A stretch of 64,000 nt of DNA, taken from the NCBI GenBank assembly GCA_030141605.1, contig JAQGDQ010000093.1:62001-126000 (forward strand). The letters are read 5' to 3'. Source of the DNA: Tubiluchus corallicola (lineage: Eukaryota > Priapulida > Priapulimorpha > Priapulimorphida > Tubiluchidae). The notes beneath the pieces are model-generated. The model searched no databases, was not told the origin of the DNA, and saw only the letters and a list, made by a program, of their open reading frames with translations. Below, one piece after another: positions 4,201 to 61,200 of this stretch. Position numbers and translations under genes: made by a program. The number at the start of each line of letters is the position of its first letter. The stretch's first letter is position 1.

Positions 4201-7200
4201 CACGCTTCTGTTGATTTTCTAAAAATTTGAAATCTTGCAATAGTTCTTCTTTTGCAAGATATAGAGGACAGACTGCAAATAAAATCAAGCATCAAAACAA
4301 CATCATACAGATTTATGCGTTCAACTCAGTGGCGTCACTAATAACGGAGCAAGGGGGAGCAACAACTCCCCCTAGGCACATTTTTCAAAATTGGCACCTT
4401 TCAGCAACCAGGTTAAAAGGGGTGTGCATATGCGAGCATGTGTGAGTTGTCAATAGGGCACAAGCAAACAAACACCCGCTGTAAAATTTATAACATTACA
4501 AAATGACCAATGTAGATAACTAATAGACATATCATTATCATAACAGTTGACAACCCATGCTGTCCTAATACCTAACTAACAACCAATTCACACTACTGGA
4601 TGTTACTTGAATTGAAAGCAGCGTGCACAATGTGTGTGTAAACAATATGCTTCAAAACAAGTGCAGTCGATTCTATGAACAAGCTACACAGTTAATCTAC
4701 ATAAACTTAGACAAAGAGGAATTAGTATTAGCACGTACAGACCTACTTATTACAAAGTGTGTATTGCGAACAAGTACAAGAGTATTACGTACTACAAAGT
4801 GTGCAAGGCAAACAAGTACAAGAGTACTACGTACTACAAAGTGTGCATTGCAACAAGTACAAGAGTACTTCGTACTACAAAAGGTGCATTGCAAACAAGT
4901 ACACGAGTACTACGTACTACAAAGCAGGCATTGCAAACAAGTACATGAGTACTAAGTTCTTCAAAGTGTGCATTGCTAACAAGTACAGGAGTACTACATA
5001 CTACAAAGTGTGCATTGCAAACATGTACATGAGTACAATATACTACAAAGTGTGCACTGCAAACAAGTACATGAGTGGTACAATTAAAATGTCATTTATA
5101 TCGTACCGAGAAGGGCATCAACTTCATCCAGATTTCCATTCACAGACTTCTCACACATCTGTAGTAAGCGGAAGTGAGGAGACATCATGATTGGCAAGGA
5201 AGCTGTCGCTGCCGCCGGAGATGATTGTTGGTTTCCTGTGGTGGATCGACCGCACAGCATCGGCACCAAATTGATTGCGATCTTATCGCTTTCCTCCTCG
5301 GATCCAACCGGCTGACTGAACTCATCTTCAATTCCTAATCTTGTTTCCACGGCAACCAGCAAACCACTGTAGAAATAAAAGCTTTTCAATTTCACAGAAA
5401 GAGAAGCGGCTACAGCTTAAAAGATCCTTTAAAGAATTTTCCATAGAAAAAGAAATACTTGGAAGCACCTATTATTACAGCCTATAAGAACCATCTTGTC
5501 AACAGACAAAAGACAACAACAATATGAACAAAAAGAAATTAGGACCCAGTAAATTAGTTTACTTTAAGTTACAACTGAAACAGTGATGCAGCTAATAGGA
5601 AGCAAGGGAAGCAACTGCTCCCCCAACACATTTTTTTCAAAATTGGTGCCTTTTCAATCTGCCTTATTACTCTATTTGACCAACCTGTCTCCCGTGTTTT
5701 TGAAACATACGCATTTACACAACTCATTTGTCAAGGCTGACTGGTTGAAAAGAGGGTCAAATTGCACAAACTCTAAAACTCTAATATGTTCTGATCACAG
5801 TGCCTTTTTTATATTTTTGCCCCCTTAACTTTAGAATATAGCTACACCCCTGAACTGAAACAAGTACAATGTGTCACATATATAATTATTGATATTTTTT
5901 CCAAGAATTGATTTCTTATAAATGTAGCTCCATATCTTCCTTTACTGAATTTCCTTTGAAGGAAAAGAGATCCAGCAATTCCATCATTAACGTAAGTTGT
6001 ATTTTCTGCAACTATAAGATATGCAAGGTAATCCAAGAAAACCATTTTTCCAAACTAACTTGAAGCTCTTCGTCCCAGTAGAGGACACTAGAGGCATGAT
6101 CATCGTGCATCCTAATGTCTCCTCGTTCTAAATGCGTATATATGCCCAAGAAGTGCTGCTAGGACGTTTTTTGTGCACAATAAGCAAAAAACAGTCATTT
6201 TTGGAAGTTTCCTCCTGCGTACAAAAACCGACTTAGGTGCACTTGGTTGGAATCTTGGACAAAAACTTTTACTTCTTTGGAAAGAAGAGAAACCGGGTTA
6301 GACGATAACGTGTGTCGCTTTAACAAACGCTTCTAATGGGATGAAAGGTTACGAGTACTTTGCGGAACGTTTTTTCTGAAAGACCCTGTATGATTGCAGT
6401 GCAAATTTGTCATGCACTGGTGGACACATTCACTCGTGCACAGTAAACAAATGCCATAGTATGAGTCACAATTATCTCAAGCAAACAAGCATTCGTTAGG
6501 GTCACAGCCTAAAAGCACGGCAAATGTACGACCGTGACAAATTACTGATGACAATAGGTAACCATTAATGATCGCCAATGCTGCTTAGCAGAGCCCAAAG
6601 AAAAAAAAAACTGCCAAACAGCTGACAGCACTAAGGTAGCTTGCACAGTGTTGCTTTCAAAGTATGTTTTCTAAAAACAGTCGACAAATGCATTTCAAAT
6701 TTTACAAAAATGACTGAGAGCCAAATAAACTTAAATGCGTAAAACTTAGAACTTTTCAAATTTGATAAAACAGATGTAATTTAGTAAACTTATGTCCAAA
6801 GAAAACTGATGTGCAACTAGAAAAGTCTAATTATGGTGCACACACAGTTGCAAAACCTATTCATGTATGTGGAAGTAACTGTCTAAATGTAGAACAACAT
6901 AAAGACATATTTCAACATGGTAATAATCGTTTGAGTAATAGCAAAGGTTATAAATGCTGACCTACTAATAACATGAATCAGAGTTTTAACTACGAAATAC
7001 AGCTGAACATATCCGGATGGGATGAGGCCACCACAAATCGAGTTATGGTTTTATGCTTGGACGTGATCTTTCGCATCAATGCTACACTAATGATTGCCCT
7101 CAACGTCCTCGTGATGATCGCAGTGATCAAGTTCGAGAATTTGCGAAACAATGCAAACTGGCTTATTTTCAATATGTCTGTGGCCGACATGTTGGCAGGA

Positions 7201-58200: not shown

Positions 58201-61200
58201 CATCTGAGCATGTTTAAATGCCTGAAATCAAAGTGCAGTGTGTGTGTGTACTAAAAAGAAGAAAGCACGAACATACTGCATTTACAGATGCACGTAAGCA
58301 AGACTAAGTGCGAAATCATAAAATGAGTATACACTCATATCTTGGTTTTCTGGACAAAAGCGGGGAGACATCGGTCCGAATTTGCCGACTGTCCACATTT
58401 ACCGATACTAAGCTAATAAAGTAGGCGCCGTGTATTAGACTCACAGTAATGTAGAATCAATCGTCCAGTTTTCTGAAAAACGTCTAGTACGAGCCGCTCC
58501 TAAGCAAAAGTATGTAAAAACTGTTGGCAACTAACTTAAATAACTCTGCATAATTGACTCTATATTTTTTCTACAAGACGTAAACAAAGTAACGGTCCGC
58601 CAGCTAGCGGTCAGCTCGCGAAACAACAGATGTCTGTAGTATGCGGGACTTTTTAATTAAAAAGTTGTCCAATTCTTCCGATATCAGTAAAAAGCACGGT
58701 CCGACAAACCGAGATATGAGTGTATTACTACGCTGATAACGTGTTTTCTTCAAATTATAATTAGTGATTATACAGCTGACACTTTAAATGTTTGCATTAT
58801 GTAATAGAATAAGCGTGATAAAAATCACTTTTCAGTCATTATATAAATTTCAAGTAAGAGAGTTTAGCATGCACTGTTTGATATGCAATGGCTTTATAAA
58901 AATGCAGGTAGTCGTCGACTTATAATGTGACATCACAGTCGGTTTTGGCAGATCGGTCGTCAGACAAGTTGGACGCCCCTGCACGCAAGATGTGCGTGTA
59001 TGTGCACTAAGTATGACGGTGCCTAAGATGAATATATCAAAACGTACGGCAAATTAACATTAATTTGCTCAAAAAATGAAAGACGAGTCATGACTAGTTT
59101 TGTATAATTGATTAATTAAGTTGTGGTCAGGTTGTAAAGTTGTAAGTTGCATAGGTCGTAGGTCGACAACAATCTGCACACCACATCAATAACCGTACCA
59201 AAACAAACAGCAAAAAACATTTGACAAGTTCTTACAGTAATCTCCTGGTTTTCGCAAGGAAATGAAATACATGCGGATCCTCGAATACCAGGTGGTTACT
59301 GTGTAATTGAAATCTGAAAAGAGTTAAAGATGACCAACTACTAAAATAGCCGTGCAAGGCTATGAAAACTAGTACATCCATTCCTAAACAATATAGTTAT
59401 TAGCAGACTAACAACCAAAGAACAGCTAATGTTGAACTCAATGTAGTTTCGTGTTAGAGTTGACTGTGCATAGAGTTTCACTTCAAAATGGAAAACATCT
59501 TAAGCAATAAGAGTAAATTTGATGTCTCGGCCGCTTATGGTGTCGAGAATTTCGTGCAAAAAGGGCCAAAAGTCTTTTAAAGGACCCTACTAATACACAA
59601 ACGGGTAGGGTGGAATTTATGGTATTCAAACAAGCGTAAACCACCAGTTCCATTCAAAATAGGCACTTTTCCACAATGACAAATGCGCTATAAAAATATT
59701 TAGCATTTGTTGACTATCTCATTTTTGCCTATATCAAACAATGGAGAAAGTCAATACAATGGTAACATCACCCACGATGTTGTAATTAATACTGAGAACT
59801 CAAAGCCACGCAGTTTCACCTGAGCTCTAACCAGTTTATTTCTCAATCGGCCTAGCCGAAAAGCAACCTAGCTTTAATCGCACCAGCCACTCGGTGATGG
59901 GAGTCGAGCTAGCTGACATTTTTGCTGGCTGCAAAGATTATTGCTCGGGCGATAATCACTAGACACTGTAGATCACTGGTTGAAATACAGCATCGCAGAT
60001 TGGCAGTCAGATTGTGCATATGCTTGGCAGAGATGCTAAACTTTATAAATATTTGAACGTCAGTTCAAAATGAAATACACAAATAGGCAACGTTAGTCAC
60101 ACGTCTGGGATAATTTGGTGTTTCCGTATTGATTCGTCGGTAATCAAGATAAGCCTCGCCAAGAGTTGGATTAAAATTATATTTGCAATATATCCATTGC
60201 TTGTTTATAATAATGAAAAATTGATCTCTAATGCATTATTTTAATTTGTATATCAGCTTTTTTCTGTGTATAAGCAACACAAATTAGTTTAAAAATTTGT
60301 CTCCATAATTTAACAGTTAACTAACAATTTTTCATTTGTTTAGTTAACAAAAAATCATAGCTTTAGCTGACTTAGCTAATTTACAGTGTGAGTCATCTAA
60401 TGTAGTAGCAACTGACTCAGCTTCAGCAGAGCTAGCCGATTTACTGTGAGTCAGCTAATGGAGTAGCAACTGATTCAGCTTCAGTCTCTATTAATACTAA
60501 AACCAAAGTAAATGATGCACACCAGGTCATATGACAGCTGCTCATTGTAGACAGATAATCATTTAAAAACAAAAAAGAGCAAGTACTGGCACCTTCAAGG
60601 CAAAATAATATAACAAAGTTTACATGCTTGGGTGTATTTGCACCCATTCTAACGGCAGAGAGTTAGGCATAAAAAATTCCATTCTACAGGAACTAAAATA
60701 CGAGTGTACTCTTAACGCACTAGTGCTGCCCCAATTGTCAGTAATGATAACTATTCACTTACCTAGGAGGCTTTTCAGTGACATCGGTGACAAAGAGTTC
60801 AGTGAATCGTTCCTGCTCCTTATGGCTAATTAGTTTCTGAAATAGTCAGTAAATAAACTGGCCAAACAAGACAAAGCAGAAGTGGGACATTATACAGTTT
60901 GTAAACCGAACAAAATCTTACAGAATAAGCTTTTTCATAGTTTCGTTGTGCTCACGCATAGTTGCCGTAGGTCAAAGGTTAAGTGTACTACAGCAACACG
61001 TCTTATCACAACTGTTACGTGACATGTGGGTAAAGCAAAGCCGTCTGCCACGTCAGTTGTTTTATGTGGACTTTACTTAGTTATGCATCAGTCTGTGCGC
61101 ACAGTGATTTACTAGCTGGATATTCCTTGGGAATAAGAAAAATGAACTTGGTAAAGTTCCAGCTAGTTGTTAAAACTGTTACTATTACAATAGCATGGGC

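Follow-up and report, generated by a model that had tools for sequence, protein, structure and literature searches.

Clusters of several genes nested in a single intron of another gene have been described in insects. A cluster of GMC oxidoreductase genes whose members are 27 to 69% identical occupies one intron of Flo-2 of more than 83.2 kb (PMC1891103). The TipE/Teh genes, which code for auxiliary subunits of sodium channels, share the last intron of CG18675, in Drosophila together with the unrelated gene VhaM9.7-c; the host spans about 20 to 100 kb, and the nesting is kept in most insects studied and lost in silk moth and Tribolium (PMC3240667). A third source places six paralogous genes in one intron of AAEL014407 of Aedes aegypti (PMC3689595). 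The present analysis concerns a comparable arrangement in the priapulid Tubiluchus corallicola, found in a stretch of 64,000 nucleotides of contig JAQGDQ010000093.1 (C2218:62001-126000, called the window below). Here, one intron of the DNA-repair gene FANCD2 contains three class-A G protein-coupled receptor (GPCR) genes and six gustatory receptor-like (GRL) genes, all antisense to the host. The locus is interpreted, with high confidence, as one FANCD2 gene with nine antisense nested receptors belonging to a mixed array that was probably duplicated as a block, one copy of which now lies in the FANCD2 intron.

The locus agrees with the GMC cluster in being a tandem multigene family within one intron of an unrelated host, and FANCD2 runs opposite to all nine nested genes, compared with almost all genes of the cluster in Flo-2. 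The two differ in content: on the one side enzymes, with a nesting kept in four insect species (PMC1891103), and on the other a DNA-repair gene that houses receptors of two unrelated classes. With the TipE/Teh genes the locus shares the presence of several family members in one host intron and a comparable host span, the nested genes here being receptors and their host FANCD2 (PMC3240667). The six GRLs recall the six genes in AAEL014407, but are set apart by not forming one clade and by being unrelated to their host (PMC3689595). The preliminary description of this DNA called the arrangement unusual, which is fair, although a closely similar layout was already in print for the GMC genes in Flo-2 and a related one for the TipE genes. 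A search of the literature on nested gustatory or chemoreceptor genes found no relevant paper; FANCD2 as a nesting host was not searched by name, and therefore no claim of being unpublished is made. The FANCD2 locus adds a case to the known nested clusters, with two receptor classes mixed, a second array elsewhere in the genome, and a DNA-repair gene as the host.

The FANCD2 host gene

The giant intron has a length of 55,396 bp (5367 to 60762, minus strand) and is delimited by splice sites, with collinear FANCD2 on both sides. The exon directly 5' of it (60763 to 60836, 74 nt) ends at 60763 in phase 2, as read from its translation and splice sites, with the donor AG/GTAAGT, and the exon directly 3' of it (5107 to 5366) starts in phase 2 with an acceptor CAG before 5366. 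The phases of the two edge exons agree, as had been proposed for a junction across the array, and a phase mismatch at this point is ruled out. Two further minus-strand exons lie upstream at 62210 to 62308 and at 63475 to 63556, the latter being the third upstream of the junction; both were placed by translation and splice sites, and the joined product matches FANCD2. Downstream, four minus-strand exons at 4157 to 4272, 3580 to 3912, 2197 to 2328, and 1070 to 1201 were bounded by eye, the first and the third of these with a probable GC donor.

Joining the eight exons of the window gives a product of 409 amino acids, which was compared with Pfam and PDB. It matches the profile PF14631 over positions 594 to 991 (E value, 2e-76) and seven distinct FANCD2 sequences of PDB. 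Six of these align in a single stretch (about residues 598 to 989), and the mouse-type 3s4w in two stretches. No gap falls at the junction in the alignments shown; gaps do occur elsewhere, one of them in the chicken FANCD2 chain about 17 residues downstream of the junction. Because gaps occur away from the junction, the statement that the translation follows FANCD2 without gaps is true of the junction itself, in the alignments shown, and not of the whole product.

Across the genome searched (343.5 Mb in 2344 contigs), PF14631 has 14 matches with an E value of at most 0.001, and every one of them is on the minus strand of C2218, in a collinear series over about 100 kb. They run from 149.9 kb (profile position 70) to 50.3 kb (position 1399 of 1418), with undetected stretches between matches. 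The in-phase junction and the absence of a second FANCD2 from this profile search bear out the single continuous gene of the preliminary description. The mono-ubiquitination lysine, K561 in human FANCD2, is kept, as RKQL of the exon C2218:127792-127968 aligns with human residues 560 to 563. Apart from the giant intron, the gaps between neighboring detected exons measure 9.3 kb or less; the longest of them, at 140.5 to 149.8 kb, probably hides undetected exons, because profile positions 111 to 314 are absent there. A giant intron about six times as long as this next longest gap could indicate that the array has divided FANCD2 into two genes with separate transcription. Such a split is very unlikely, as the break falls inside one codon with standard splice sites on both sides, FANCD2 matches continue in coding exons on either side, and K561 has its counterpart.

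Receptor genes in the giant intron

All nine nested genes lie on the plus strand and have open main frames, in agreement with the gene content first described. The three class-A GPCR genes are each contained in one open frame, and all three frames score over the cut-off of 7tm_1: GPCR1 at 6973 to 7935 (320 amino acids; E value, 1.6e-32), GPCR2 at 10649 to 11542 (8.2e-19), and GPCR3 at 57104 to 58081 (6.8e-17), the last being 33% identical to GPCR2. The count of six GRL genes was likewise correct, and their extent had been taken too short, each gene having two exons beyond the one first seen. GRL1 consists of exons at 13268 to 14458, 19845 to 19934, and 20721 to 20831 (7tm_7 E value, 5.8e-17); GRL2 of exons at 23477 to 24622, 24872 to 24961, and 25411 to 25512 (1.7e-12); and GRL3 of exons at 26982 to 28169, 30062 to 30151, and 31511 to 31627 (8.2e-11). 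The exons of GRL4 lie at 33683 to 34849, 36400 to 36489, and 36993 to 37100 (0.0012), those of GRL5 at 42886 to 44034, 44895 to 44984, and 45778 to 45876 (3.5e-9), and those of GRL6 at 51586 to 52749, 52922 to 53011, and 53563 to 53670 (1.9e-11). The first exons of five of the six GRLs exceed the 7tm_7 cut-off; GRL4 stays under it, with 18.7 compared with 26.6 bits, and despite this score shows the full GRL gene structure and motif, its assignment also drawing on the trees described below.

The gene models of all six GRLs follow one structure, with three exons, an exon 2 of exactly 90 nt, two phase-0 introns, and GT-AG splice sites. The proteins measure 445 to 464 amino acids, none with an internal stop, and every third exon contains TYhhhhhQF, the pattern of the GRL TM7 motif. 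A stop seen in exon 2 of GRL2 concerns one frame only and is absent from the frame used in the in-phase join. The animal GRLs of PMC7746228, where a TM7 motif is named, are like the GRLs of the window in the 7tm_7 match, the TM7 motif, and introns near the 3' end; the two do not differ in kind, and what is new is the location in FANCD2. A profile of the six GRLs finds MhOR5 (E value, 9e-11), Orco (2.5e-9), and Gr64a (0.005) in PDB, and by this similarity the window GRLs are members of the insect-type receptor channel superfamily, to which the insect gustatory and odorant receptors belong.

GRL5 and GRL6 are 81% identical, and their nonsynonymous divergence (dN) of 0.113 compared with a synonymous divergence (dS) of 0.315 (dN/dS, about 0.36) indicates purifying selection on this pair. 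The nested receptors might instead be decaying copies without function, as the fragment at 57034 to 57081, a repeat of the start of the GPCR3 frame, could suggest. With nine of nine main frames open, GT-AG sites and the TM7 motif in all six GRLs, and the dN/dS value of GRL5 and GRL6, decay is exceedingly improbable. Two copies of 0.9 kb, 90% identical to each other, precede GRL4 (32218 to 33104) and GRL5 (39161 to 40042); their two longest frames have no match in Pfam. None of 10 frames searched with Pfam, from the 104 other window frames of at least 70 amino acids, exceeded the cut-off, and Rfam gave no match in the window at the gathering score.

A tenth antisense GPCR gene, GPCR4, lies outside the window at C2218:135119-136189 and also exceeds the 7tm_1 cut-off (E value, 1.4e-20). 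It lies in another FANCD2 intron, which measures 8.7 kb; the exons bounding this intron, near 130.9 and 139.8 kb, have adjoining profile positions. GPCR4 does not appear to be a copy of GPCR2, as its best listed match is on C36 and GPCR2 ranks third among the non-self matches listed. Three single GPCR queries returned at least 115 to at least 125 genome matches each, many of them clustered, e.g., on C1770, C2114, and C1518. Elsewhere on the contig, an SH3-SH2-tyrosine-kinase gene forms one open frame of 497 amino acids (C2218:191726-193216), CSK-like by eye, and a hand count from 66 matches gives about 40 nuclear-receptor loci in the genome, a number that points to a bilaterian and not to a sponge or placozoan. 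A search for COX1 returned no match.

The second array and the origin of the nesting

A second mixed array is located at C1387:30378-98193, where four GPCR genes accompany six GRL genes, each in plus-strand orientation. It contains counterparts of the GPCR1, GRL1, GRL4, and GRL5/6 types in the same order as in the window. The closest of the 124 non-self matches listed for GPCR1 (125 of 939 candidates scored) is the GPCR at C1387:30378-31337, with 40% identity, and it sits left of the first C1387 GRL, as GPCR1 does in the window. The closest of the 14 non-self matches listed for GRL4 is found on the plus strand of C1387, with 64% identity, as is the closest match of GRL6 outside the window, with 72%. 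Three more GPCRs, at 39.0, 41.8, and 45.2 kb, are interleaved with the C1387 GRLs. A second FANCD2 around this array is ruled out, as the FANCD2 profile has no match on C1387 and the eight window exons have none at E values up to 1 in 20 kb at the array ends. A pentraxin gene on the opposite strand was considered as a host of the C1387 array; the exon read there ends in a stop some 6 kb to the right of the final GRL exon, and a host status is unsupported. The approximately 10 kb read on the left side of the array contain no candidate host gene.

The profile PF08395 has 44 matches in the genome, 12 of which are three genes repeated with the same spacing on four further contigs. These three GRL matches recur on C1796, C2016, C2136, C2140, and C2209 at identical spacing and with the same scores, a pattern that points to redundant assembly. 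The genome yielded about 35 GRL loci. For a first tree, of 35 rows, the six array genes were combined with 26 PF08395 matches outside the window and three genes retrieved with GRL4, leaving out the 12 repeated matches and one match on C1475. In this tree, the six window GRLs, the six C1387 GRLs, and three single genes form one clade (support, 100/99), in which GRL4 pairs with C1387_76, GRL5/6 with C1387_97, and GRL1 with C1387_52/71. A second tree of 18 chosen rows recovers the same cross-array pairs with support of 97/97 to 100/100 and the 15-gene clade with 100/100, while it resolves neither the branching order among GRL5, GRL6, and C1387_97 nor the positions of GRL2 and GRL3. On these 18 rows, a single clade of the six window GRLs is rejected by the approximately unbiased test (p-AU, 1.6e-46), and so is a clade of the C1387 GRLs (1.4e-37); location defined the groups tested, but the first tree preceded the test. 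Several rows are long-branched according to a program warning, which names no rows of the cross-array pairs. A duplication of two genes as a block, from GRL1-2 to GRL3-4 within the array, had been hinted at by identities and is unsupported by the tree.

Since the nested GRLs pair with members of the C1387 array, most of the GRL diversification predates, on these trees, the separation between the arrays. The preliminary description spoke of a chemoreceptor family expanding inside one intron; the nine genes in one intron stand, and the expansion is unsupported, given the rejection of the six GRLs as a clade. In the simplest account, an ancestral mixed array with the order GPCR1-type, GRL1-type, GRL4-type, and GRL5/6-type would have been copied as a DNA block, and one block copy would have ended up in the FANCD2 intron. 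GRL5 and GRL6 probably split there locally, because they are adjacent, share 81% identity compared with 72% and 65% to their C1387 counterpart, and group with support of 90/86 in the 35-row tree.

Alternatively, the family could have grown in the FANCD2 intron, with the C1387 array as an exported copy. The position of all nine nested genes on one strand, the close neighborhood and high identity of GRL5 and GRL6, and the well-supported 15-gene clade that holds both arrays fit such a history, which nevertheless appears doubtful in view of the rejected window clade and the supported cross-array pairs. These results exclude growth in place for the time after the separation of the arrays; an older cradle in the intron, followed by export of the whole block, is compatible with them. 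An extended form of this idea would make the FANCD2 intron the ancestral home of a co-regulated mixed GPCR/GRL island that was copied as a unit to C1387, with host transcription in dividing cells silencing the receptors and the repair gene serving as a cell-cycle-linked receptor switch; this proposal is improbable.

Several points weigh against the preferred reading, the block duplication of a mixed array with one copy in a single FANCD2 gene. GRL2, GRL3, and C1387_33/62 are without a partner in the other array, and the identities of the cross-array pairs vary widely, from 40 to 72%; owing to the missing partners and uneven identities, the block model needs losses or gains. The three interleaved C1387 GPCRs are not established as counterparts of GPCR2 or GPCR3, and either copy may be the older. 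About 10 kb were read at each end of the C1387 array, so that it, too, could sit inside a different host gene. Splicing over 55 kb, separate promoters, and separate cell types are steps that we infer. Finally, the junction of bacterial and animal DNA on C2218 is most likely a chimeric join.

This junction belongs to the contig end C2218:1-45030, 17 kb left of the window, which carries dense open frames of bacterial type; animal repeats start sharply at position 45,095. Three of these frames were tested, and all three have matches to protein families that occur in bacteria (MoxR-type AAA, queuosine synthesis, and alpha-amylase), the others being named by eye. With 80% identity to proteins of Marinilabiliaceae and Labilibaculum, the MoxR-type protein is nearest to Bacteroidales. 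A true transfer of bacterial DNA is the alternative to a chimeric join. The join to about 45 kb of bacterial DNA and the three GRL genes recurring on five contigs mean that the assembly contains faults, and the receptor array might thus have been wrongly placed between FANCD2 exons. The chance of this is slight: two misjoins in one intron would be required, with FANCD2 collinear and on the same strand on both sides, and the window contains no N. The giant intron also has dispersed repeats in common with each flank (27 and 78 pieces) and none in common with the bacterial block, a pattern still compatible with a misjoin within the same genome.

Coexistence with FANCD2 and meaning of the locus

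FANCD2 would be transcribed through the array, which would then be spliced out, and each receptor would use its own promoter. Because of the antisense orientation, the FANCD2 pre-mRNA would not contain the splice and polyadenylation signals of the receptors. Polymerase collision would be limited by expression of host and receptors in separate cell types, dividing cells as opposed to sensory ones. Simple nested pairs are mostly on opposite strands, with 220 of 296 in human and 193 of 248 in mouse (PMC8467205). The risk lies in interference, which can make a host transcript end prematurely, as for H13/Mcts2 (PMC13309782). Based on their similarity to MhOR5, Orco, and Gr64a, the GRLs are predicted to have an intracellular N-terminus and channel activity, and they probably form tetrameric ligand-gated cation channels.

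Among multigene clusters nested in one intron, the locus is an additional case, one of receptors within a gene for genome maintenance. That both arrays mix two receptor classes with no structural relationship is notable by itself. Because a related array with the same gene types and without FANCD2 exists in the same genome, the window and C1387 arrays constitute a natural control for the effects of nesting on expression and evolution.

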